Made by a program: the position numbers and the translations under genes. Positions 2,435 through 21,794 of a DNA stretch of 42,556 bases are shown here, one piece after another. The notes under the pieces were generated by a model. That model made no database searches, had not been told where the DNA came from, and was given only the letters and a program-made list of their open reading frames with translations. Each line of letters opens with the position of its first letter. Within the stretch, counting starts at the first letter, position 1. This stretch comes from Clostridiales bacterium (lineage in GTDB: Bacteria; Bacillota; Clostridia; Oscillospirales; Oscillospiraceae): NCBI GenBank assembly GCA_021202775.1, contig JAJQCJ010000056.1:1-42556 (forward strand). The letters are read 5' to 3'.

Positions 2435-4072
2435 TCAGGCCAGCTGCTCCAGCAGCGCCTGGCACTGGGCCATTAACTGCTCCTTCGTGCCGCTGTTATC
2501 CAGTATAGCGTCGCAGGCGGCGCGGTAGACCTGCTGATCCGGCTGGGCCGCCAGCCGGGCGCGGGCGTAGTCCTCAGTGAGGCCGTCCCGGTCCATAATG
2601 CGCCGGAGGCGGAGGCTGTCGTCTGCCACCACGGCCACCAGCCGGTCGCAGTCGGCCTCCAGGGGGCTTCCCAGCAGGGCGGCGGCGTCCAGCACCACGC
2701 CGGGGAGGTGCTTCCGCTGCATCTCCGCCGTCTGTCGGCGGACCTCCAGGGTGATGAAGCGGAAGGTGATGCCGTTCAGGTCCTGCAAGGCGGCCCTGTC
2801 CCGGAACACGATGGCCCCCAGGGCCTTCCGGTCCAGCCGCTCGCCGTCAAAGACCCCGTCCCCGAAGCGGCTCCGCAGGGCGGCCCGAAGGGGAGCGCTG
2901 GTGTCCAGCAGGTCATGGTAGACCCGGTCGCAGTCGATGACGCCGAAGCCGCGGGCGGCGAAGATGTCCAGCACGGTGGACTTCCCCGCGCCGCTGCCCC
3001 CCACCAGGCCGAGGATGGGGATGGTATAGCCGTCCTCCCCCAGGTCCAGCACGTTGAACCCTGCGGCCTTTTTCAGCCGGTTGCCAATGGCCAGCCCCAG
3101 CCCAGCCGGGTCGGGGCACTGGGCGAAGATCTCCGTGACTCCGGTGCCGTCAAACCGCCGCAGGGCGGAAAAGACCCGTCGGGCCTGCTCCGTCTTGTCC
3201 CGGGCCGGCCCCAGGTCGTGGACCTCCAGCCCGGAGAACAGAGGGAGAAACTCGTGGAAGCAGATCACGCCGGTGGTGGGGGTCAGCCGCCTTTGAATAT
3301 AGGCGGCGCACTTGTCCGGCCTGCCGGCAACCACCGTCACCGGCGCCTTAGGCGCATAGTGGCGGTACTTCATTCCCGGTGCCCGGGGCCGCTCGCCGTC
3401 CTTTAAGAGGCCGGTCACAGCCTTGTCGATGGTGATGCTGCCGCAGACCGCCTCCAGCTCGTCCAGGGGCATCCCGCCGGGCCGGAGCAGCTGGGGCGGG
3501 GAGACCGTCAGGTCCAGAATGGTGGACTCCACCCCCACGGAGGAGGGGCCGCCGTCCACGACGCCCTGAATCTTCCCGTCCATGTCCTCCAGCACCTCGG
3601 CGGCGTTGGTGCAGCTGGGTCGGCCGGAGGTGTTGGCGCTGGGGGCGGCGATGGGCACCCCCGCCGCCTGAATGATGGCCAGGGTCACGGGATGGTCGGG
3701 GCAGCGCACCCCCACCGTGTCCAGCCCGCCGGTGGTGCGGTCTGGGACGATGGCCTTCCGGGGCAGGATCATGGTCAGCGGCCCCGGCCAGAACGCATCC
3801 GCCAGCCGATAGGCCAGGGGCGGCACGTCCCGGCAGTAGGTGTCCAGCCAGCTCTCATCGGGGATGTGGATGATCAGCGGGTTGTCGCTGGCCCGGCCCT
3901 TGGCCCGGTAGATGCTGGCCACGGCCTCCGCGTCCAGGGCGTTGGCCCCCAGGCCGTAGACCGTTTCCGTGGGGATGGCCAGCAGGCCGCCGGAGCGGAT
4001 GATCTCTGCCGCCTCCCGGATCTCCCCCTCGTGGCCGGAGACCTGGGGCAGATGATAAACCTTCGTGTTCAA
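2435..4072 (-). CDS. Fused threonylcarbamoyl-AMP synthase (Sua5/TsaC) and dephospho-CoA kinase (CoaE)
   Basis: One uninterrupted 545-residue frame carries two enzymes. Residues about 10-210 are a YrdC/Sua5 catalytic domain that makes threonylcarbamoyl-AMP for t6A37 of ANN-decoding tRNAs: PTETVYGLG at 34-42, K58/R60 in AKGRAS, and S145/N147 in APSANTSGRPS. Residues about 230-340 match the Sua5 C-terminal domain, starting at APGMKYRHYAP. From about 350 the chain becomes dephospho-CoA kinase, the last step of CoA synthesis, with P-loop GGSGAGKST at 358-366, DCDRVYHDLL and a typical CoaE C-terminal half. Sua5 and CoaE are normally separate proteins. The join is a short charged linker (near 343-350) with no internal stop. 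It lies 7 bases after prfA, so is probably cotranscribed with it; prfA-Sua5 proximity is common in Firmicutes. Confidence 0.93.
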   Translation of the reverse strand: MNTKVYHLPQVSGHEGEIREAAEIIRSGGLLAIPTETVYGLGANALDAEAVASIYRAKGRASDNPLIIHIPDESWLDTYCRDVPPLAYRLADAFWPGPLTMILPRKAIVPDRTTGGLDTVGVRCPDHPVTLAIIQAAGVPIAAPSANTSGRPSCTNAAEVLEDMDGKIQGVVDGGPSSVGVESTILDLTVSPPQLLRPGGMPLDELEAVCGSITIDKAVTGLLKDGERPRAPGMKYRHYAPKAPVTVVAGRPDKCAAYIQRRLTPTTGVICFHEFLPLFSGLEVHDLGPARDKTEQARRVFSALRRFDGTGVTEIFAQCPDPAGLGLAIGNRLKKAAGFNVLDLGEDGYTIPILGLVGGSGAGKSTVLDIFAARGFGVIDCDRVYHDLLDTSAPLRAALRSRFGDGVFDGERLDRKALGAIVFRDRAALQDLNGITFRFITLEVRRQTAEMQRKHLPGVVLDAAALLGSPLEADCDRLVAVVADDSLRLRRIMDRDGLTEDYARARLAAQPDQQVYRAACDAILDNSGTKEQLMAQCQALLEQLA

Positions 4073-6216: not shown

Positions 6217-8114
6217 GCCTCTCCCTCCAGCTGCAGGGAAAGCGCCTCCCACGCCTCGTACAGCGCGGCCAGCTGCTCCTCCTGCCGCTCCTTCCGGGCG
6301 GTCAGGTCGGTGAGCTTTTCATAATCGGTGGCATAGGCCGCCATTTCAGCCTCCAGGTTGGCCCCGGCCTGTTCGGCGGCGGCGATCTCCCGCTCCAGCT
6401 GGGCCAGCTTCTTGGCCGCCAGCTTGGTGCCGCCGGGCTGCTTCGGTTTTTCCTTTTTGGGCTTTTTCGCCTCCGGCTTCAGGACCTCCCGCAGCTCCAG
6501 GTCCCGGGCCTTTTTGGCAAGCCAGCCCTCATAGTCTCCCCGGAAGTCGGTGATCTTCCCGTCCTCCAGGGTCCAGATGCGGCTGGCGAATTTTTTGATG
6601 AAGTACCGGTCATGGCTGACGAAGAGCAGCGCCCCGTCAAACCCCGCCACAGCGGACTCAATCCACTCCCGGCTGGCGATGTCCAGATGGTTGGTGGGCT
6701 CGTCCAGAATCAGCAGGTTGATGCGCTCGTCCATCAGCAGGCACAGCTTCAGCCGGCTCAGCTCCCCGCCGGACAGGGCGGAGACAGGCTTGAACACGTC
6801 CTCCCCCCGGAAGTGGAAGGCCCCCAGCCGGTCCCTGGCCTCCTGGGGGGTGCAGTTCTGCTCGTAGAGCATGGTGTCCACCAGGGAGCGCTCCATGTGG
6901 TCAAACCGGACGATCTGGGGCAGGTAGCCGGGGCGGACGGCGGGGCCGAAGTGGACATAGCCGCTGTCCGGCGCCTCCTCCCCCAGGAGGAGCTTCAGAA
7001 AGGTGGTCTTGCCGGTGCCGTTGTCCCCCAGAAGGGCGATGCGCTCCCCGCCGGTGACGGAGAGGGAGATATGGTCAAAGAGGGTGCGGCCCTCGTAGGA
7101 CTTTTTCAGGCCGTCCACGGTGAACACCTCGTCCCCCTGAAAGTCCAGGGAGGTGAAGCCCATGGTCATGGCTCGCTCCTTCCCCACAGGCTTCTCCACG
7201 GTTTGCAGCTTCTCCATCCGCTTTTCCATGGAGAAGGCCCGCTTGTACAGCTTGTCGTTGCCCATGAAGGCCCAGAGCTTCATCTTTTCCGCGGCCTCGG
7301 TGAGCTGGGCCACCTTGGCCTGCTCCTTTTCGTACTGCCGGAGCCGCTCCTGATAGCGGCGCTCCTTCTCCTCCACGTAGAAGGAGTAGTTGCCGGAGTA
7401 AAACTCCGCCCTGCCGTCCTGAATCTCCACGATGCGCTTCACCACCCGGTCCAGAAAGTACCGGTCGTGGGAGATGGCCAAAACGGTGCCCTTGAAGCTG
7501 TCCAGATAGCCCTCCAGCCACTCCACGGCGTGGAGGTCCAGGTGGTTGGTGGGCTCGTCCAGGAGCAAAATATCCGTGTCCTCCAGAATCAGGCGGCCCA
7601 GGTTCACCCGGGTCTTTTCTCCGCCGGACAGCTCCGAAAAGGGCTGCCGCCGCATGGCGGGGGAGATGCCCAGACCGTTGCAAACCTTGCCGATCTGCAC
7701 GTCCAAATCGTAGCCCCCTGCCAGCTGGAAGGCGGCGGAAAGGCTGTCGTAGCGCTGTAGGGTCTCTTTGGAGGAATCCCCGGCGGCCATTTTGGCGGTG
7801 AGGGCCTCCATCTCCCGCTCCATTTTGTGGACGCGGGCGAAGGCGGTGTCCAGCACGTCGTCCACCGTGTAGCCGGCGGGATAAACCGGTATCTGGGAGA
7901 TCAGCCCCATCCGCTTCCCGGGGGCCAGGAACACTTCCCCTTCATCATAGTCGTACTCACCGGTGAGGATTTTGAACAGCGTGGTCTTGCCGCAGCCGTT
8001 CTTGCCCAGCAGGCCCACCCGCTCGCCGGAGCTGACATGGAAGGTCAGCCCCCGGAGCACGTCCTCACCCACGGTGAAGGATTTTGTCAGATTGTTTACA
8101 GAGATGTCAATCAT
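6213..8114 (-). CDS. ABC-F family ATP-binding protein
   Basis: Cytosolic, membrane-domain-free ABC protein with two nucleotide-binding domains. Walker A motifs are GLLGKNGCGKTT and ALLGDNGTGKTT, signatures LSGGEKTRVNLG and LSGGELSRLKL, and both Walker B segments read LLDEPTNHLD or LILDEPTNHLD. Between the domains lies a long charged linker rich in Lys/Glu (the P-site tRNA interaction motif of ABC-F proteins), and the C-terminus has a Lys/Pro-rich stretch followed by a coiled coil. ABC-F proteins bind ribosomes to relieve stalling or give antibiotic protection; nothing here indicates resistance specifically. I chose the ATG at 8114; a TTG two codons upstream is possible. No strong ribosome binding site is seen. 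The gene is coupled to the DUF218 gene downstream. Confidence 0.95.
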   Translation of the reverse strand: MIDISVNNLTKSFTVGEDVLRGLTFHVSSGERVGLLGKNGCGKTTLFKILTGEYDYDEGEVFLAPGKRMGLISQIPVYPAGYTVDDVLDTAFARVHKMEREMEALTAKMAAGDSSKETLQRYDSLSAAFQLAGGYDLDVQIGKVCNGLGISPAMRRQPFSELSGGEKTRVNLGRLILEDTDILLLDEPTNHLDLHAVEWLEGYLDSFKGTVLAISHDRYFLDRVVKRIVEIQDGRAEFYSGNYSFYVEEKERRYQERLRQYEKEQAKVAQLTEAAEKMKLWAFMGNDKLYKRAFSMEKRMEKLQTVEKPVGKERAMTMGFTSLDFQGDEVFTVDGLKKSYEGRTLFDHISLSVTGGERIALLGDNGTGKTTFLKLLLGEEAPDSGYVHFGPAVRPGYLPQIVRFDHMERSLVDTMLYEQNCTPQEARDRLGAFHFRGEDVFKPVSALSGGELSRLKLCLLMDERINLLILDEPTNHLDIASREWIESAVAGFDGALLFVSHDRYFIKKFASRIWTLEDGKITDFRGDYEGWLAKKARDLELREVLKPEAKKPKKEKPKQPGGTKLAAKKLAQLEREIAAAEQAGANLEAEMAAYATDYEKLTDLTARKERQEEQLAALYEAWEALSLQLEGEA

Positions 8115-8174
8115 GGTCAACAGTCAGGTACACCACAGCGAGAGCGCCGCAGTGTACCGATAGAGAGAATATGG

Positions 8175-9575
<1,401 letters not shown>

Positions 9576-9580
9576 GCTGC

Positions 9581-10630
9581 TTAGCCCTTTCTAACCTCCA
9601 GCGAGGCGCGGATGATGGTTTCACACAGGTCGCCGTAGCTCAGCCCCGTTACGGCGGCCTCCTGGGGCACCAGGCTGGTGGGGGTCATGCCGGGGAGGGT
9701 GTTGATCTCCAGAAACCAAGGGGTGCCGTCCGGGGTGACGATGAAGTCCGCCCGGGCGTAGACCGCCATGCCCACCGCCTCAAAGACGGTTTTGGTGTCC
9801 TTTGCCAGCCGTTCCTCCCACTCCGGGGGGATGGGGGCGGGGGTGGTCTCAATGGCCGCGCCGGGCTGGTACTTGTTTTCATAGTCGTAGAAGCCCTGCT
9901 TGGGGACGATTTCAATGGAGGGCAGGGCGTGGTCCACCAGGTAGCCCACCTGAATCTCCCGGCCCGCCACATACTGCTCCAGCACCACGTCGCCTCCCAG
10001 GTCCAGACAGGAGGCCAGAGCGGCCTTTAGTTCCTCCTCCGTCTCCGCGATGGAGACGCCGATGGAGCTGCCGGAGGCCAGAGGCTTCACCACCACCGGC
10101 AGGGGGGTGCGCCCGGCGATGGCGGGAATGTCCTCTGCCGTATAGGAGACCTTTTCCCAGGCGGGGGTCCTGACGCCGGTGGGGGCCACCAGCTTCTTGG
10201 TCAGGTCCTTATCCATGGCGATGGCCGCCCCCACGAACCCGGAACCGGTGAAGGGGATGCCCAGGGTCTCCAGGGTGGCCTGCACCCGGCCGTCCTCTCC
10301 GCAGGCCCCGTGGAGGGCCAGAAAGACGATGTCCGCCATCCGGCACAGCTCCAGCACGCCCGCCCCAAAGAGGCTGTCGGACTGGAGCTTCCGCCCCCGT
10401 TTCAGGGCCTCCAGGTCAGGGGCCACGGAGGGCACCTTCCGCCAGCTCTCCGGAATGGGGGCGGAGAACAGGGCCTCCGGGGTGCAGTCCTGCTCCTCCA
10501 TACCCAGGTACATATCGATGAGTGCCACCTGATGGCCCCGCTCCCGCAGGGCGGCGGCGATCATGGTGCCGGAAGAGCGGGCCACGTCCCGCTCCGGGCT
10601 GAGCCCGCCGGTCAATACAACAATTTTCAT
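9581..10630 (-). CDS. ddl: D-alanine--D-alanine ligase
   Basis: ATP-grasp enzyme that joins two D-alanines for peptidoglycan synthesis. The start at MKIVVLTGGLSPERDVARSS (10630) follows TGGAGGTATCCTTC, an ideal ribosome binding site, and gives 349 residues; the frame is open for 39 more codons upstream but that part runs over the promoter. Family motifs: HGACGEDGRVQ, the AIAMDKDLTK segment, VVVKPLASGSSIGVS for ATP binding, and near the C-terminus ARADFIV and FLEINTLPGMTPTS with its metal-binding Glu and Asn. First gene of the ddl-murF operon. Confidence 0.97.
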   Translation of the reverse strand: MKIVVLTGGLSPERDVARSSGTMIAAALRERGHQVALIDMYLGMEEQDCTPEALFSAPIPESWRKVPSVAPDLEALKRGRKLQSDSLFGAGVLELCRMADIVFLALHGACGEDGRVQATLETLGIPFTGSGFVGAAIAMDKDLTKKLVAPTGVRTPAWEKVSYTAEDIPAIAGRTPLPVVVKPLASGSSIGVSIAETEEELKAALASCLDLGGDVVLEQYVAGREIQVGYLVDHALPSIEIVPKQGFYDYENKYQPGAAIETTPAPIPPEWEERLAKDTKTVFEAVGMAVYARADFIVTPDGTPWFLEINTLPGMTPTSLVPQEAAVTGLSYGDLCETIIRASLEVRKG

Positions 10631-10691
10631 GAAGGATACCTCCATCTGTGCGCCCGCTGAACCGGGGCAGGGCGCGGAAACATACAGTACT

Positions 10692-10720
10692 ACTATAGCA
10701 TATTCCGGGAAAAAGCACAA
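10692..10720 (-). promoter_or_regulatory. Sigma-A-type promoter of ddl-murF
   Basis: On the minus strand TTGTGC (-35), 17 bases, then TATAGT (-10), about 60 bases before the ddl start. Confidence 0.7.
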
Positions 10721-10750
10721 TAGTTTGAACGTTGAATTTCCGGGCAAAAG

Positions 10751-10809
10751 AGCTGTTAGCTATTAGCTGTTAGCTTTTAGTCACCTCTCCGTCAGCGTCG
10801 CTGAAAGCG
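10751..10809 (+). repeat. Dispersed repeat related to 5382-5440
   Basis: AGCTGTTAGCTATTAGCTG through GTCAGCGTCGCTGAAAGC matches the reverse complement of 5382-5440 with a few substitutions and a 7-base insertion. A half copy of the palindrome seen at 5268-5286 (ACAGTGTGCGCCCC) follows near 10844-10858. The surrounding 10631-11032 gap holds the two diverging promoters, these repeats and no gene. Confidence 0.5.
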
Positions 10810-10915
10810 GCGGGGGACCGGTGTTACCCATGGTTCACTTGACACAGTGTGCGCCCCTGCGGAGAAACCAAAACCGGTTTGAAATCCCGCTTTTCCAAAG
10901 AATCCGCTCTCCCCC

Positions 10916-10944
10916 TTGACAACGGCAGAGAGATGTGCTAAAAT
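10916..10944 (+). promoter_or_regulatory. Sigma-A-type promoter of the phage-tail-like gene
   Basis: TTGACA, 17 bases, TAAAAT; transcription would start near 10951, leaving a leader of about 80 bases before the ATG at 11033. Confidence 0.8.
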
Positions 10945-11032
10945 ACAATTATCACCAAACGGAGATACATAGAAACCGGACGGTGAATCATTAACATTCC
11001 AAGAAACCGAAAGGAGGAACCCCAGCAGAAGT

Positions 11033-11404
11033 ATGACAGTGACAGATTTGACCATCGGCGGCGTGACCATGCCCACCCCCGCACTGGAAGGGCTGACCAT
11101 CACCCGTGAAAAGATCTGGTCGTCCGACACAGGGCGCACCGCCACCGGGAAAATGGTGGGCACCATTGTGGCCGTCAAGACCAAGGTGGCCATCAAGTGG
11201 CCGGTGCTGACCATGGACGAGGTGGAGACCATTGAACGCGCCGTCAGCTCATCCACCCCCTTTGTGACCATGACCTACACCGACATGACCGGCGCAGCGT
11301 CCACAAAGACGGTGTACTTCGGCACGCCGTCCTACACCGTGTACAGCTATGCGGACGGCACGCAGTATGTGAAGGACGTGACGGTGGACGGCGTAGAGCA
11401 GTAG
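11033..11404 (+). CDS. Small phage-tail-like protein (resembles DUF6711), outside any prophage
   Basis: 123 residues, with no signal peptide or membrane segment. The layout, a short N-terminal beta strand with GGVTMPTPALEGLTITREKI, then GRTATGKMVGTIVAVKTKVAIKW, VLTMDEVETIERAV, and a Thr/Tyr/Val-rich beta half ending KDVTVDGVEQ, resembles small proteins in tail modules of Firmicutes prophages (DUF6711-type, from memory). No terminase, portal, capsid or integrase is nearby, so it is either a domesticated or leftover phage gene or an unrelated beta-rich protein. It has its own promoter (TTGACA-N17-TAAAAT) and a strong terminator, so is probably a monocistronic expressed gene. AAAGGAGG lies about 15 bases before the ATG, longer than usual. 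Function unknown. Confidence 0.8.
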   Translation: MTVTDLTIGGVTMPTPALEGLTITREKIWSSDTGRTATGKMVGTIVAVKTKVAIKWPVLTMDEVETIERAVSSSTPFVTMTYTDMTGAASTKTVYFGTPSYTVYSYADGTQYVKDVTVDGVEQ

Positions 11405-11427
11405 CCCGATCCTTCTCCGAAAACAGG

Positions 11428-11462
11428 CGCTGCCCGAAGGAGTTCCTTCGGGCAGCGTTTTT
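11428..11462 (+). terminator. Rho-independent terminator
   Basis: Perfect 14-base-pair stem CGCTGCCCGAAGGA / TCCTTCGGGCAGCG with a very short loop, followed by five Ts. Ends the gene at 11033-11404. Confidence 0.92.
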
Positions 11463-11474
11463 ATGGCCTGTGTA

Positions 11475-13739
11475 TTATAAATCCTGGGCGTAGTAGTTCA
11501 TCAGGCAGCCGGCCAGCACCACGTCCCGCTCCTCCCGGGTCATGCCGGGGAGCCGGAGGGTCAGGCTGGTGGCCTTGACGCCGTCCTCGCCGGGCTGGAG
11601 CAGAGTGGCCGGAACGGTTTCTGCGTCGCCCTCCAGGGCGGCCCTGATGCCGGGGATATACAGCCTGTCGCCGGGCTGGATGTTCAGCGCGGCCACATCG
11701 GGGACGATGAAGGGCAGCATGCCCCAGTTCACCACGTTGGAGCGGTAACGCTTGGTGGCGTACTCTGCCGCCACGTTGGCCACGCCGCCCAGCACCCGCT
11801 GGCAGGAGGCGGCCTGCTCACGGGCGGAGCCGTCGCCGGGCTTCAGGGCCATGACGAAGGAGCCCAGACCGGTGGTGGCGGGGTCGTGGCCCTCCAGGGC
11901 GGCCAGCACTTCCTCGTCATAGTCGCCCGCTCTGCGCTTCAGCTCTACAGCCTTGACCGCCTTGGCCCGGCCCACATAGGCGGGGTCCTTGCGGCTCAGG
12001 GCAAACTCGCTGAGGCGGAGGGGGTTGGAGCGGTAGGAGGAGGTGTCGCCGGAGGGGATCAGCTCATCGGTGGTGGTCACCGGGTCATAGATGGCGCTGG
12101 CGGCGGTCATCAGCAGGTTCTCCGGCAGGGCGATCTGCTCCGGCCAGTCGGTGATGTTGGGGCCAAAGACCAACTCCGTCTCCGGCTTGGGGTTGCCCAC
12201 GCCGAAGTAGACCCTGGCCTTGTAAGCGGAGTCGTCATACTCGTAGGGCTCCCAGGCGGGGTCGGCGGGGACGTCCGGCAGCTCGGTGGCGGCGGTCAGC
12301 GCGCCGCCGTTCAGCACAGTGGCGGCGATGGAGCGGGCATCCATCAGGCCCACATAGGAGATCTGGCCGTCGGCGGGCTTGGAGCCCTCCCGGTTGGGGA
12401 AGTTCCGGGTGGAGTGGCGGATGGAGAAGCCGCCGTTGGCGGGCACGTCCCCTGCGCCGAAGCAGGGCCCGCAGAAGCAGCTGCGGACGCTGACGCCGGC
12501 GGCCAGCAGGTCGGTGATTGCCCCGTTCTTGGACAGGGCCAGGAAGGCGGGCATGCTGCCGGGGTAGACGCTGAGCCACAGCCGGTCATTGTCCAGCGCA
12601 TGGCCCTGCAGCATCTCCCGCACCCGCATGATGTTCTGATAGGTGCCGCCGGAGCAGCCGGCCACCACGGCCTGGTCCACATAGAACTTGCCGTCCCGCA
12701 CCTTTTCCGTGAGGCTGGTGGGGGGTGTTTTCAGCTTGAACTGGCGGACGGTGGCCTGATCCACCTCGTGGAGGATGTCCATCATGTTGGCCTTGAAGTC
12801 GGCGATGGTGAAGGCGTTGGAGGGGTGGAAGGGCAGGGCGATCATGGGCTCCTCCGAGCTGAGGTCGATGGTGATGACATCGTCATAGTAGGCCCCATCC
12901 CGGGGGGCCAGCTCCTGATAATCCTCCGGGCGGCCCAGGGTGGTGAGGTACCGCTTCACCGTGTCATCGGTGGACCAGATGGAGCTGAGGCAGGAGGTTT
13001 CGGTGGTCATCACGTCGATGCCGCAGCGGTACTCCATGGCCAGGTTGGCCACGCCGGGGCCGAAGAACTCCATAACGCTGTTCTTTACGATGCCCTTGGC
13101 GAAGGTGGCCCCCACCAGATGGAGGGCGATGTCCTGGGGACCGACGCCGGGGCGGGGCTTGCCGGTGAGGTAGATGGCGATCACCCTGGGGTAAGAGATG
13201 TCATAGGTGCGGTTCAGAAGCTGCTTCACCAGCTCCGGGCCGCCCTCGCCCATGGCCATGGTGCCGAAGGCGCCGTAGCGGGTGTGGCTGTCGGAGCCGA
13301 GAATCATCTTGCCGCCGCCGGCATAGCGCTCCCGCATGTAGGAGTGAATGACGCTCTGGTGGGCGGGGACGAACTCGCCGCCGTACTTCTTGGCGGCGGA
13401 GAGGCCGAACACATGGTCGTCCTCATTGATGGTGCCGCCCACGGCGCACAGGCTGTTGTGGCAGTTGGTCAGGACGTAGGGGAGGGGGAACTCCTTCAGG
13501 CCGGAGGCCCGGGCGGTCTGGATGATGCCCACATAGGTGATGTCGTGGGAGGCCATGGCGTCGAAGCGGAGCTTCAGCGCCTCCATATCGTCCGTGGTGT
13601 TATGGCTTTTCAAAATGCCATAGGACATGGTGCCCTTTTTGGCCTCCTCCGGAGCGGGCAGCCCGGCGGCAGCCGCCTCCCGGGCGGGAATAAAGCGCCC
13701 GCCGGAATAGTAGGCGCCGGAATGCAAAACAGATAACAT
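11475..13739 (-). CDS. Aconitase-superfamily hydratase (YbhJ-like)
   Basis: 754 residues from the ATG at 13739, chosen because GGAGG lies 8 bases upstream (an ATG two codons earlier is only 2 bases from it); the open frame extends upstream without coding sense. It has the aconitase fold: GSDSHTRYGAFGTMAMGEGG in the N-terminal domains, AGCSGGTYQN for the first cluster cysteine, CFCGPCFGAGD for the CxxC pair of a [4Fe-4S] cluster, and a C-terminal swivel domain ending SLTLRLPGMTREERD. Length and motifs fit the uncharacterised YbhJ-like hydratases rather than citrate aconitase or isopropylmalate isomerase; the substrate is unknown. No TCA-cycle or leucine genes are adjacent. It stands alone between a promoter (13786-13814) and the terminator at 11428-11462, which may also serve this strand. 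Confidence 0.9.
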   Translation of the reverse strand: MLSVLHSGAYYSGGRFIPAREAAAAGLPAPEEAKKGTMSYGILKSHNTTDDMEALKLRFDAMASHDITYVGIIQTARASGLKEFPLPYVLTNCHNSLCAVGGTINEDDHVFGLSAAKKYGGEFVPAHQSVIHSYMRERYAGGGKMILGSDSHTRYGAFGTMAMGEGGPELVKQLLNRTYDISYPRVIAIYLTGKPRPGVGPQDIALHLVGATFAKGIVKNSVMEFFGPGVANLAMEYRCGIDVMTTETSCLSSIWSTDDTVKRYLTTLGRPEDYQELAPRDGAYYDDVITIDLSSEEPMIALPFHPSNAFTIADFKANMMDILHEVDQATVRQFKLKTPPTSLTEKVRDGKFYVDQAVVAGCSGGTYQNIMRVREMLQGHALDNDRLWLSVYPGSMPAFLALSKNGAITDLLAAGVSVRSCFCGPCFGAGDVPANGGFSIRHSTRNFPNREGSKPADGQISYVGLMDARSIAATVLNGGALTAATELPDVPADPAWEPYEYDDSAYKARVYFGVGNPKPETELVFGPNITDWPEQIALPENLLMTAASAIYDPVTTTDELIPSGDTSSYRSNPLRLSEFALSRKDPAYVGRAKAVKAVELKRRAGDYDEEVLAALEGHDPATTGLGSFVMALKPGDGSAREQAASCQRVLGGVANVAAEYATKRYRSNVVNWGMLPFIVPDVAALNIQPGDRLYIPGIRAALEGDAETVPATLLQPGEDGVKATSLTLRLPGMTREERDVVLAGCLMNYYAQDL

Positions 13740-13785
13740 GGTCATTACCTCCAAAGGGAATTCAGGATAAACATACTGCACCCTC

Positions 13786-13814
13786 AGTATAGCAAAAGAC
13801 GAGGAAAGTTGCAA
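13786..13814 (-). promoter_or_regulatory. Sigma-A-type promoter of the hydratase
   Basis: On the minus strand TTGCAA, 17 bases, TATACT, about 47 bases before the chosen ATG. Confidence 0.78.
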
Positions 13815-13833
13815 CTGCCAATGCTGCAAAAAA

Positions 13834-13866
13834 AGAAAAAATACCCCGGGATAACCCGTGGTATTT
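13834..13866 (-). terminator. Rho-independent terminator of the 13949-14611 gene
   Basis: Minus-strand stem AAATACCACGGG / CCCGGGGTATTT (one mismatch, loop TTAT) followed by a T-rich tail; it lies 83 bases after the stop codon of the upstream gene and just before the hydratase promoter. Confidence 0.75.
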
Positions 13867-13948
13867 GCACGAAATGCAGGCGGCGGCTGAGACGGCTGCA
13901 AACCCCTGCCGCCTGCCCCGCCGCCCGCGCCTCAGGTGCGGGCGGGGG

Positions 13949-14611
13949 TTACGCCGTCCATTCGCTGTGGATGACACCCACCAGATACCAGTCGCTGCCG
14001 GACAGCCGGAATACCAGCTTCAGGCTGGACCAATCCCGGTCGGTGCCGTCGGTGGCGGGGAGATAAAAGTCCACAAAATGGCAGTCCGGATAGGCGTCCG
14101 CCACGTTTTCCAGGCTGTTGCCGGAGTGCAGCACGGTGTCGATGCCGATCTCCGCCACATCCCAGTAGTTGGCATTCCACACATAGCTGTCAAAATACTC
14201 CGGGACGGTCATCTTGATGGGAGAGGAGTCGCTGCCAAATCCCCAGACGTAAGAGGTATCGTCCTCCCCGGCGGCGGCCAGATTGTCGGCGGAGAAGGTC
14301 AGGTTGGAGGTGGGGTCTACGGTAGAATAGGGGGTGAAGGTGACGCCTTCCTCCGGGTCAACAAAGGCGGCGAGGGCCTCAAAGTCCTGCTCGGCAACGG
14401 CCCGGACGGCCTTCATGGCGGTGATCACCAGCCGTCCCTTCTGGTCAGGAAGCTCCTCGGTATCCTGTTGGGAGACGCTGCCGTCCGCGGACGTGGCGCC
14501 GGTATGGACGGCGGGCTGCTGCCCTGAAACGACGCCGCGGAGCACGAAGCCCGCAGCCAGCCCCACAATCAGCGAAATGCAGCAAAAGAACACAATGACA
14601 CGCTGTTTCAC
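13949..14611 (-). CDS. Membrane-anchored extracytoplasmic protein of unknown function
   Basis: 220 residues from a GTG at 14611 that sits 8 bases after GGGAGG; the frame is open 21 codons further up but lacks a ribosome binding site. Residues about 5-27 (VIVFFCCISLIVGLAAGFVL) are a single N-terminal membrane anchor, followed by a Ser/Gln/Asp-rich linker. The remainder is a soluble domain with VITAMKAVRAVAEQDFEALAAFVDPEEG, YVWGFGSDSSPIKMT and a C-terminal LKLVFRLSGSDWYLVGVIHSEW. The pattern (helix with Phe/Ala, then strands ending in W-x-L-V-G-V) is reminiscent of NTF2-like lipoprotein or transcription-associated extracellular domains, but I do not recognise the family. Monocistronic, with its own terminator. 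Confidence 0.85.
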   Translation of the reverse strand: MKQRVIVFFCCISLIVGLAAGFVLRGVVSGQQPAVHTGATSADGSVSQQDTEELPDQKGRLVITAMKAVRAVAEQDFEALAAFVDPEEGVTFTPYSTVDPTSNLTFSADNLAAAGEDDTSYVWGFGSDSSPIKMTVPEYFDSYVWNANYWDVAEIGIDTVLHSGNSLENVADAYPDCHFVDFYLPATDGTDRDWSSLKLVFRLSGSDWYLVGVIHSEWTA

Positions 14612-14779
14612 AGCTGTCACCTCCCGGAAACAATAATACATGTTTATTGTACCAGAAAAAGAAGCGCATTGCAACCGCTGCTGAAAAATAAATGTTTTTC
14701 CGAGGGGGACATGGGGGCCTGCGGTGCAGCAGGCGCATCAAAAATTTTCCCAGAGCCTGAATTTTTTTGGGAATACCCC

Positions 14780-17549: not shown

Positions 17550-17582
17550 GGGACGGGGCGCTCCTTTCTGAATGACAGATTC

Positions 17583-17588
17583 ATTATA
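17583..17588 (-). promoter_or_regulatory. Probable -10 box of cls
   Basis: TATAAT on the minus strand, 34 bases before the cls start; no good -35 hexamer is seen at the right distance. Confidence 0.45.
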
Positions 17589-17817
17589 ACAGAAATAAAA
17601 GGGAAAATCTACCGACAGAAGAGGAAAAGTGGGGTAGAACCGTTGACAGCGGTATCATCAGTCACCGCAGCGCCGCCCCGGTCTCCGGCCCTTACTGCAA
17701 TCATCAGAAAAGACATCATCTATTTTCCCGGCTTTTGAGAAAAGAGGCAAAAAATTTGGCTGAATCTCGCTGAATGACATCAACAACAGGCAGAAAGCCG
17801 GCGATACCGGCATACCC

Positions 17818-17862
17818 AATCCGGGGCCCGCGGCTTGAAACACCGCAGGCTCCGGATTTTTT
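17818..17862 (+). terminator. Orphan rho-independent terminator upstream of the peptide islet
   Basis: Stem AATCCGGGGCCCGCGG / CCGCAGGCTCCGGATT (one mismatch, one G-U), loop CTTGAAACA, then six Ts. No plus-strand gene lies upstream, so it either ends an unrecognised RNA or cls-antisense transcript, or insulates the islet promoter. Apart from this and the cls -10 box, 17550-17948 shows no gene. Confidence 0.75.
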
Positions 17863-17948
17863 GCGTTCCGGCTGCCCGGCGGAAGCGGCTGTGCAGCGGC
17901 CATCAACCCCGGCTGAAGGAATACAACCGTTCATTGTAAAATATAAGC

Positions 17949-17977
17949 TTGACATATGCGGGGGGGGGTAGTAGAAT
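17949..17977 (+). promoter_or_regulatory. Promoter of the peptide islet with a G9 tract in its spacer
   Basis: TTGACA at 17949-17954, 17 bases, TAGAAT at 17972-17977. The spacer contains nine consecutive Gs (17960-17968). Gain or loss of a G would change the spacing from the optimum, a classic layout for slipped-strand phase variation. Predicted start is near 17984, about 43 bases before the first peptide gene. Confidence 0.75.
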
Positions 17978-18026
17978 AACAATTGGATCGGTATCGTCAT
18001 TTGCATAACAAGCGAGGGAGATAGTT

Positions 18027-18167
18027 GTGTACGAAAAACATAAGATGGATGTAATAGCATTCGATAGTGTGGATGTGTTTGCAGACCTTTCGATTGCCTC
18101 TGATGCAGATGAAAATGGTGGAGGAACGACTCTTCATTCAGTCAATCCGTATTCCAGCGATAAGTGA
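18027..18167 (+). CDS. Short peptide, member 1 of a tandem paralogous family
   Basis: 46 residues from GTG 18027, after GAGGGAG with 6-base spacing. The N-terminus VYEKHKMDVIAFD is shared with the three peptides downstream. It is followed by SVDVFADLSIAS and a divergent, polar, acidic/Gly-rich C-terminus with DADENGGG ending YSSDK. No Cys, no signal peptide, no membrane helix. The architecture of a conserved N-terminal segment and variable tail is what precursor (RiPP-type) peptides show, but no modifying enzyme or exporter is recognisable nearby. Similar 'YxKPxMxVVxFExxDVIxxS' short ORFs occur widely in Clostridia as hypothetical proteins, to my recollection. Coding status is supported by the paralogues rather than length. 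Confidence 0.72.
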   Translation: MYEKHKMDVIAFDSVDVFADLSIASDADENGGGTTLHSVNPYSSDK

Positions 18168-18182
18168 AGGGCAGAATAGATT

Positions 18183-18293
18183 ATGTACAATAAACACGAG
18201 ATGGAAGTCGTTCAGTATGAAGCGAACGTCTATGTTGTAGCATCATACCCTCCTGGAAAAGATGGTGGTGAGGAGGATTACCACGATTGGTAA
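18183..18293 (+). CDS. Short peptide, member 2 of a tandem paralogous family
   Basis: 36 residues from ATG 18183. N-terminus MYNKHEMEVVQYEANVYVV aligns with the other members (Y-x-K-H-x-M-x-V-V-x-Y/F-E). It is followed by ASYPPG and a short acidic, aromatic C-terminus, GGEEDYHDW. The 15 bases between the stop of member 1 and this start (GAAGGGCAGAATAGATT, overlapping the stop) closely match the junction before member 4 (AAAGGGCGATAGATT), so whole units including the ribosome binding region were duplicated. No Cys. Function unknown. Confidence 0.72.
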   Translation: MYNKHEMEVVQYEANVYVVASYPPGKDGGEEDYHDW

Positions 18294-18341
18294 GGCAGAT
18301 TCAAACGAGTAACCGGAAAATTTTTTATAAGGAATGAGCTT

Positions 18342-18596
18342 ATGCCGATGGGTGAGACAGAAAAGACGGAAAAAATGCGCGAACAGAAGCGGGCAGAACG
18401 CAGGCGTTACTACGGCAGAACCGCCAACCTTTATCCCATGAGGCCATGGACTCCGGAAGAGAGCCAACTTGTTCTTGAACACTCAATTCCTGACAGCGAG
18501 TTGTCTCAGAAGATTCAGCGTTCGCTGAAATCCATTCAGGGAAAACGCCGGAGGATGAAGAATAAAGAGGCTAAGCGTGTGGACGTAAAAGGATGA
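18342..18596 (+). CDS. Small SANT/Myb-like helix-turn-helix protein
   Basis: 84 residues from ATG 18342 (ATG 18348 also possible), with AAGGAA about 9 bases upstream. The first 25 residues are very basic and charged (EKMREQKRAERRRYYGR). The core RPWTPEESQLVLEHS, IPDSELSQKIQRS and LKSIQGKRRRMK has the three-helix spacing of the SANT/Myb-like domain found in small bacterial and phage proteins, with W-T-x-E-E in helix 1 and S-I-Q-x-K-R-R-R in the recognition helix. DNA binding is therefore likely. It lies between peptide members 2 and 3, suggesting it either regulates the cassette or moved with it. Base composition is AT-richer than flanking core genes. Confidence 0.8.
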   Translation: MPMGETEKTEKMREQKRAERRRYYGRTANLYPMRPWTPEESQLVLEHSIPDSELSQKIQRSLKSIQGKRRRMKNKEAKRVDVKG

Positions 18597-18602
18597 CGAA
18601 TT

Positions 18603-18740
18603 ATGTACGAAAAGTATGAGATGAATATAGTTAGCTTCGAAGAACGCGAACAGTTTGCCGGGGTTGTGTGTTGGTCAAATCAGGGGGATACATATGGCCC
18701 CGACAGTTATGGCGGGGATGCCCCCAGCAGTGATATGTGA
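18603..18740 (+). CDS. Short peptide, member 3 of a tandem paralogous family
   Basis: 45 residues from ATG 18603, just 6 bases after the SANT/Myb-like gene. N-terminus MYEKYEMNIVSFEE aligns with members 1 and 2. The remainder, QFAGVVCWSNQGDTYG and a C-terminus rich in Gly, Asp, Ser and Pro ending SSDM, has diverged. It holds the only Cys among the three full-length members. No membrane helix or signal peptide. AAAAGGAT lies about 9 bases before the ATG. Same interpretation and caveats as member 1. Confidence 0.72.
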   Translation: MYEKYEMNIVSFEEREQFAGVVCWSNQGDTYGPDSYGGDAPSSDM

Positions 18741-18754
18741 AAGGGCGATAGATT

Positions 18755-18790
18755 ATGTGCGAGAAACATGAGCTGGATATTATCCAATAG
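18755..18790 (+). pseudogene. Truncated short peptide, member 4
   Basis: Opens with MCEKHELDIIQ, clearly the shared N-terminus, then meets two successive TAG stops after 11 codons. The upstream AAAGGGCGATAGATT matches the region before member 2, so this is a fourth unit that has lost its tail, not a chance ORF. It could alternatively be a minimal peptide. Confidence 0.6.
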
Positions 18791-18840
18791 TAGCAGGGAA
18801 TACGTGAAAACTGAGTTCCGTGTTTTTCGCAAATTCCCCC

Positions 18841-18868
18841 TTGACAGAGATGGAAAACATGATAAAAT
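18841..18868 (+). promoter_or_regulatory. alaS: Promoter of the alaS T-box transcript
   Basis: TTGACA, 16 bases, TAAAAT, with the T-box leader beginning directly downstream. No terminator separates it from the peptide islet, so read-through from the islet into the leader is possible. Confidence 0.8.
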
Positions 18869-18881
18869 GAAAACGATAAAC

Positions 18882-19099
18882 TGGCGATGACGAAACGAGG
18901 CGGGTCAGCCCCGGCCAAAGCGAGTGGAGGACGGTGAAAGCTCCACACCCCCGGCCCCCGTTCAGCCACTTCGTCTGCCGTCCGGGAGGACCGGAACGCC
19001 CCATCCCCGTTACAGGATGAACTGAGCGGTGCGCATTGCGCATCATCAGGGTGGTACCGTGGAAATTTCCGCCCCTGAGTGAATCAGGGGCGTTTTTCT
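18882..19099 (+). promoter_or_regulatory. T-box riboswitch leader of alaS, specifier GCC (Ala)
   Basis: The antiterminator T-box AGGGTGGTACCGTGG is at 19048-19062 and is followed by a terminator, stem CGCCCCTGA / TCAGGGGCG with a T-tract (19070-19099). Stem I closes with GACGAA (18889-18894) and TTCGTC (18970-18975). Its distal part is GTGGAG / CTCCAC around a GGTGAAA loop, and the 3' side carries GCC followed by A at 18965-18967 in the specifier position, an alanine codon. Uncharged tRNA-Ala would pair with GCC and with the T-box bulge (GGTG region) and prevent termination, raising alaS expression when alanyl-tRNA is low. Confidence 0.93.
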
Positions 19100-19145
19100 T
19101 TTGTGCCACAGCGTTTGATGGTATTTTCATTGGAGGTTTGAGTTT

Positions 19146-21794
<2,649 letters not shown>

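Follow-up and report, generated by a model that had tools for sequence, protein, structure and literature searches.

A patch of short peptide genes upstream of alaS in a Clostridiales genome: a probable orphaned fragment of a RiPP-type precursor array

Why does a Clostridiales genome carry several look-alike genes for very short peptides in one patch upstream of alaS? The window, meaning the whole stretch of 42,556 nucleotides that we analysed, is the entire contig C24 of a 2.52-Mb genome in 174 contigs that is 95% complete. Labels of the form L### denote loci or regions and G### genomes, with G000 for the window's own genome. Between positions 17900 and 18822 the GC content is 45.3%, compared with 61.9% for the whole window, and a 900-bp segment at this islet ranks second in AT-richness among 834 overlapping segments, bearing out what an initial annotation of this DNA had remarked. 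The islet probably derives from a RiPP-type precursor array, of which one piece, with a Myb-like companion gene, was acquired laterally and orphaned here.

Peptide genes and promoter region of the islet

The islet holds three intact reading frames, P1 to P3, and a cut-off copy, P4 (Table 1). All four begin with Y-x-[KE]-[HY]-E-M-x-[VI]-[VI]-x-F. The initial annotation had described four consecutive units with a shared N-terminus, each preceded by an ATTATG region. The shared start and the intact frames stand, but the units are not consecutive because an 84-aa Myb-like ORF, overlooked in that list, separates P2 from P3; likewise, ATTATG is found at P2, P3 and P4 but P1 has GTTGTG. For P4, positions 18741-18783 are 83.7% identical to the start region of unit 15 in the array locus L189.

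Table 1 Features of the islet and its borders (positions in the window).
Feature	Position	Strand	Remarks
Promoter-like site TTGACA-N17-TAGAAT upstream of P1	17949..17977	+	11/12 consensus bases
P1, 46-aa peptide gene	18027..18167	+	GTG start; same type as unit 1 in both L189 and L202
P2, 36-aa peptide gene	18183..18293	+	ATG start; weak tail matches to L202 unit 6 and L189 unit 12, z 3.4
84-aa Myb/SANT-like helix-turn-helix protein (predicted)	18342..18596	+	AlphaFold2 model; peptide-linked elsewhere
P3, 45-aa peptide gene	18603..18740	+	ATG start; type of L189 unit 8
P4, cut-off 11-residue copy	18755..18790	+	ATG at 18755, 10 further codons, TAG at 18788-18790
Right junction zone of the islet	18791..18830	.	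Homology start in close same-genus genomes

Neither P1, P2 and P3 nor the 84-aa ORF matched Pfam or NCBIfam at E 1. A leader HMM of 38 peptides from outside the window, searched against 633 window ORFs, retrieved P1 (E 2.8e-9), P2 (4.2e-8) and P3 (1e-7), the next-best ORF scoring 4.3; these values are optimistic as the seed peptides themselves came from window-derived profiles or motifs. When the seed was split, a profile of the 18 peptides from loci with a Myb-like gene gave 2.5e-10, 1.2e-7, 5.2e-9 and 5.8e-4 for P1 to P4, and a profile of the remaining 20 gave 3.4e-5, 1.4e-4, 0.051 and 0.2. Both ranked P1-P3 first. Judged by these profiles, the leader similarity exceeds chance, and independent support for the family comes from shared tails and gene context.

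The promoter-like site is one of four sigma-70-like sites in 17560-19160, where shuffled sequence gave a mean of 1.7 (sd 1.2). Its 17-nt spacer contains a G9 tract (17960-17968; tract length in the assembly is uncertain), the only G run of at least 7 in the window. If the putative promoter is functional, this tract is possibly a phase-variable element that switches by slippage. Among 28 other loci, runs of at least 8 occurred as G8 in L193 (4086-4093), G8 in L206 (4005-4012), the latter located between peptide and Myb-like gene, and C14 in L090. Further downstream, alaS has a T-box leader at 18878-19079, which matches Rfam RF00230 with 44.3 bits (E 1e-8), less than the gathering score of 93; a promoter-like site of its own lies at 18841-18868.

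The Myb-like companion, the arrays and the origin of the islet

The AlphaFold2 model of the 84-aa protein (pLDDT 83, pTM 0.43) has helices at residues 5-27, 38-46, 51-58 and 62-83. Four predicted helices are consistent with a Myb/SANT-type helix-turn-helix; searching PDB sequences with a profile of the protein gave E 0.13 at best, to Myb chains. The ORF is rare, being found in 2/150 family genomes at E 0.01 (its own and one weak match) and in 4/391 class genomes at E 0.001, one of them weak. In the three strong class matches, a peptide adjoins the Myb-like ORF in the window and in G402 and is absent beside it in G482.

We also analysed 19 Myb loci, two of which overlap (L188 and L200), from six MAGs (isolates U.4_5, U.10_1, C.5_3, U.11_4, MI.11_1 and C.9_7). 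Fourteen of the 19 have a peptide that matches the leader profile on the strand of the Myb-like ORF and between -1200 and +1500 bp from it; the profile included peptides from these loci. This profile gave 29 hits in the 51 kb near the Myb-like ORFs and 8 in the 237 kb elsewhere; seven of the far hits are further units at the same Myb loci and one, in L201, is not. With a profile free of Myb-locus peptides the numbers were 8 of 19 loci, 11 hits near and 8 elsewhere. Myb-like ORFs without a peptide occur at five of the 19 loci, in G482 and in one faecal phage-collection record, the unannotated MT837596.1, which matched the protein at 44.7% identity (E 1e-13) and in which no family peptide was seen; a second record matched weakly (E 0.08). 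No carrier was found, as no viral contig encoded the Myb-like protein (tblastn) and no plasmid gave a match. Near a peptide-free Myb-like gene, L190 has a run of recombinase-like ORFs (9485-14645, named by eye). L192 contains two successive pairs of a Myb-like sequence and a peptide after it (8001-10238), with a radical SAM/SPASM gene and an NTP_transf_5 gene upstream of them.

Homologs of the Myb-like ORF led to large peptide arrays in MAGs, with 15 tandem units in L189 and nine in L202 (counted by eye, after dropping three L189 rows, 2421, 3395 and 5100, as spurious). The tail of P1 is identical to that of L189 unit 1 at 19/29 positions (z 15.2 against shuffles) and to that of L202 unit 1 at 15/21 (z 11.6), and the P3 tail to that of L189 unit 8 at 19/27 (z 14.4). 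Two more tail types are common to L189 and L202 (z 13-20), with their order preserved. For the P2 tail only weak partners turned up (z about 3), and several array units are without a partner, with z values below 2. In 13 of 27 units the tail ends in P-x-x-[SEA]-[DA]-x, a pattern picked after looking at the tails that shuffled tails showed 0.06 times on average and twice at most. The leaders of these 27 units mostly end in D-V-F-A, compared with D-[VI]-[IV]-[TV]-x-S in the machinery-linked peptides described below.

In six orthologue pairs (P1 in two of them), pN was 0.20 and pS 0.66 over 154 tail codons, and pN 0.29 and pS 0.95 over 90 leader codons. As pairs were picked for protein similarity, pN is biased low and the near-saturated synonymous sites are the safer part of this comparison. 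Codon positions 1 and 2 differ from position 3 with Fisher p 2e-10 for tails and 4e-5 for leaders. Tail conservation, saturated synonymous sites and the shared end together indicate that many tails are constrained products rather than free variation. The divergent tails behind a conserved leader of the initial annotation thus hold for the leader and among paralogues, from which P1 and P3 differ, but not between orthologues, where P1, P3 and other units keep their tails.

Where did the islet come from? Homology (blastn) of two close same-genus genomes to the window begins just past the cassette, at 18823 for G554 (92.1%) and at 18831 for G553 (90.6%); AlaS of G554 agrees with that of the window in each of the first 100 residues. 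Nine same-genus alaS regions had no match of at least 120 bp to the window left of 18823, and cassette DNA had no match in up to 1.5 kb upstream of alaS in the 26 other genomes in which alaS was found. That result and the cut-off P4 would also suit a neutral remnant, that is, chance ORFs or decayed copies without a present role anywhere. This is highly improbable in view of the conserved unit tails with their saturated synonymous sites, which already disfavour it for the family. The islet shares its GC content of 45% with L189, compared with 57-63% for three same-genus copies of the system; the DNA of the Myb gene shows 75-76% identity to L188 and L189. Stretches of 40-45 bp in start regions and the P3 tail are 82-84% identical to L189. 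The simplest reading is a lateral acquisition from an array-bearing lineage, in which both the transfer and its direction are deduced from these comparisons.

Two other leads were set aside. A phage origin was suggested by a match of P1 to phrog_4101 (E 0.003), which we treat as chance because none of six peptide relatives matches phrog_4101 and no phage record matches P1 at E 5. An early search with hits in 30/150 genomes at E 1 was mostly chance-like: after reading the ORFs of seven loci and scanning all fetched loci for the motif, only L005, L007 and L013 looked real besides the window. Separately, positions 1272-1493 of the faecal 4.8-kb phage record MT838913.1 are 68.6% identical to the alaS leader region of the window and look like chromosomal DNA.

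Candidate maturation genes in relatives and the search in the window's own genome

Leader profiles matched 14/391 class genomes (E 0.1) and 27/400 family genomes (E 0.05), counts that include the own genome both times and some spurious hits. The typical relative leader reads Y-E-x-[PL]-E-M-E-V-I-x-F-x-x-E-D-V-I-T-x-S. We scanned 32 of 36 fetched regions (all except L093-L096) with profiles of neighbouring enzymes; as L177 has no peptide, 31 regions from 25 genomes remained. In these regions, which were picked because the leader profile matched them and from which the machinery profiles were partly built, PqqD lies within 3 kb of the peptide in 16, an HprK-like gene in 13 and a radical SAM gene in four; PqqD or radical SAM is present in 18. 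The gene order HprK-PqqD-S26 occurs in 12 and the full HprK-PqqD-S26-ABC-NTP order in six. Linkage to peptidases, radical SAM enzymes or ABC exporters had been proposed in the initial annotation as a check on a RiPP-like or signalling peptide family, and the linkage to PqqD or radical SAM argues for the RiPP-like part. At the level of sequence, both family membership and linkage are strongly supported.

Reference libraries recognized the neighbouring enzymes to different degrees. PF05402 (PqqD) was above cut-off in 14 of 16 genomes searched, and Pfam confirmed ABC transporter and NTP_transf_5 in both L085 and L162, and in L085 also PqqD and S24 peptidase. The stretch G-T-G-K-S-T-H is invariant in twelve HprK-like proteins. 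The HprK-like proteins scanned with Pfam matched no family at E 0.01; two matched ScmC/HprK-related kinases of NCBIfam weakly (E 2e-5 to 5e-3, below cut-offs), and the best PDB sequence hit of their profile was a PEP carboxykinase at only 0.03. Three radical SAM proteins match the peptide maturase family TIGR04463 (E 1e-35 to 7e-45) as well as CefB, Clo7bot and geopeptide maturases in NCBIfam, all below cut-off, and most S26-like proteins also fall below NCBIfam cut-offs. After HprK/PqqD/S26 there is a 317-327-aa protein with an N-terminal hydrophobic segment in L162 (10014-10982), L239 (5934-6899), L193 (6959-7942) and L228 (9453-10406). Of these, the three that were scanned (those other than L228) gave nothing above a Pfam cut-off, and NCBIfam likewise had no match for two of the three. 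A large secreted-type surface protein (named by eye) adjoins the peptide in many loci read, and those of L085 and L240 carry Listeria-Bacteroides-type repeats (Pfam).

A similar arrangement is found in other genomes of the window's genus. Cassette-type profile A6 matched three of 32 genus genomes, namely the own genome, G820 and G822; the broader profile A4 also matched G554 and G785, where a peptide was not confirmed in G785. In G820 (L239) the order is surface protein, a peptide with MNRAYEKHEMEVLLF.. (YEKHEM), HprK-like, PqqD and an S26/ABC fusion, the last being a single 714-aa ORF (6915-9059) that joins an S26-like peptidase and an ABC transporter. G822 (L240) has, on one strand, surface protein, a ..YQQHEMEIIDF.. 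peptide, HprK-like, PqqD and Myb-like protein, and G554 has surface protein, peptide, HprK-like, PqqD and S26. The YxxHEM leader is thus found beside PqqD, and the Myb-like gene can share the same run.

PqqD is also encoded in all five Myb-locus MAGs tested and in the sixth, G402. L228, L229, L231 and L232 each show an HprK-like, a PqqD and an S26-like gene in direct succession in the regions read; for L230 an HprK-like gene is listed in the region, and PqqD is known from the MAG-level search. A second locus of U.10_1 (L233) reads radical SAM, PqqD, HprK-like, 327-aa protein, Myb-like and surface protein. The array loci L189 and L202 had no machinery within the bases read. A small array with machinery is seen in L178, where four leader-profile hits (2851-3511) lie beside HprK-like, PqqD, S26 and NTP_transf_5.

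By analogy with lasso peptide clusters, we propose that in the related systems the N-terminal segment Y-x-x-[PLHY]-E-M-x-V-I-x-F would be recognized by a PqqD-type RRE. The bound peptide would thereby be presented to the HprK-like kinase and the NTP_transf_5 enzyme, as well as to a radical SAM/SPASM enzyme where a cluster has one. Kinase and transferase would then act on the tail, the S24/S26 peptidase may cut after the D-V-[FI]-[AT] segment, and the ABC transporter may export the tail. V-x-A in this region fits the signal-peptidase rule. Since array units have their own conserved tails, one machinery could make a fixed product set.

The peptides might instead be small acidic proteins that work unmodified, e.g. 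by partnering surface proteins or the Myb-like regulator, in which case linkage to PqqD clusters would reflect shared surface loci. Thirteen of the 31 regions lack both PqqD and radical SAM genes within 3 kb of the peptide, and only three of these (L170, L171 and L176) meet a contig end close downstream. In five such regions whose genes were read (L087 and L089-L092) a large secreted-type protein adjoins the peptide, and in L093, outside the 31, a peptide is present but, by eye, neither PqqD nor radical SAM. P1, P2 and P3 contain zero, zero and one Cys. Nevertheless, the HprK-PqqD-S26 order after the peptide in 12 of 31 regions is a layout like that of modified-peptide clusters, and we regard unmodified function as quite unlikely.

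What of the window's own genome? As the initial annotation had noted, no maturation enzyme or exporter lies nearby; a single distant ABC protein matched in the window. Genome-wide, neither PqqD (PF05402 at E 0.01) nor NTP_transf_5 was found, an absence from a 95% complete assembly in 174 contigs that falls short of proof. Two radical SAM proteins matched, the better on C172 and the other on C49 (E 3e-9). The former was rejected as a candidate maturase as it adjoins a six-Cys peptide that we take to be SCIFF-like from its motif. The initial annotation had offered two options, reliance on unlinked genes or no processing; with both markers missing and one of two radical SAMs SCIFF-linked, the first loses ground and the second fits better.

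Precursors P1-P3 could still be at work and be processed in trans, the cassette being transcribed from its near-consensus, possibly phase-variable promoter and the machinery lying in the missing 5% or being too divergent for our profiles. The intact frames, the 11/12 promoter and the MAGs with large arrays, where PqqD is on other contigs or far from the array, agree with this. Two independent markers that were not found, the cut-off P4 and the foreign-looking patch speak against it, and overall we consider trans-processing unlikely. We therefore favour the orphaned array fragment, in which the copies are most likely unprocessed precursors, as their machinery was not found in this genome.

Comparison with known peptide systems

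More broadly, we tentatively suggest that Clostridia have a non-lasso RiPP class whose precursor arrays, with up to about 15 members, might be served in trans by a single HprK-PqqD-S26(-radical SAM)-ABC-NTP machinery. Each precursor would have a conserved tail of its own, often with a P-x-x-S-D-x end in common. The arrays would be associated with large surface proteins and with a Myb-like regulator dedicated to them, and would move between species as cassettes, here with a possibly phase-variable promoter. If true, the prochlorosins would be joined by a second precursor system of the array type, one from Clostridia whose tails are conserved and not free-running, and precursor arrays would seem able to move without their enzymes. 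It would also provide a lead for HprK-like/PqqD/S26/NTP_transf_5 clusters left unnamed by the family libraries searched, and the small same-genus operons (peptide-HprK-PqqD-S26/ABC) would offer expressible, testable systems. We found no paper on such an array in searches limited to an open-access library.

The nearest likeness is to lasso clusters of the paeninodin/pseudomycoidin type. In PMC10368454, PMC7533575 and PMC8498205, these are described with a YxxPxL leader, a discrete PqqD-type B1, an HPr-kinase-like K and a nucleotidyltransferase N. The family shares with them a short precursor, whose leader partly resembles Y-x-x-P-x-L, discrete PqqD, HprK-like kinase, N and an ABC transporter. 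It differs in having an S24/S26 peptidase where B2 might stand, large arrays, and surface-protein and Myb-like partners. Lasso membership fails since neither the transglutaminase-like B2 (PF13471) nor the Asn-synthetase-like C (PF00733) was present among 28 Pfam-scanned proteins, a selection of the ORFs from L085, L086, L088, L162, L188, L189, L192, L193, L239 and L240. Within the leader, Y and the hydrophobic residue of YxxPxL are kept, and P at position 4 occurs in 5 of the 14 peptides taken from 14 of the 18 machinery-linked regions and in none of 27 array units, which have H (19) or Y (8). According to PMC10368454, one lasso system still removed its leader after one or two residues of YxxPxL had been changed to Ala; with all three changed, phosphorylation continued and cleavage became partial. 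The motif alone thus does not prove RRE binding. As in RRE-dependent RiPPs, precursors of the family are linked to a PqqD-like RRE (16/31 regions), and no such RRE was found in the window's own genome.

Other comparisons concern kinases, radical SAM enzymes and arrays. The HprK-like proteins resemble the ScmC/HprK-related kinases of SynChlorMet/HPr-rel systems, and the radical SAM proteins those of TIGR04463, CefB and Clo7bot systems, both at scores far below the curated cut-offs. Unlike SCIFF and other Cys-rich radical SAM peptides, P1-P3 are not Cys-rich and have no multiple-Cys core. Prochlorosins, as described in PMC10783134, have up to 16 consecutive precursors per cluster served by one promiscuous enzyme, and like these ProcA arrays ours consist of tandem separate precursor ORFs with a shared leader. 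Among the 27 array units, positions 12-20 held no conserved GG, the double-Gly leader end of class II lanthipeptides. Where prochlorosins have a Nif11-type leader, a double-Gly site and ProcM, the present family has a short Y..HEM leader and linkage to PqqD/HprK/S26 or radical SAM.
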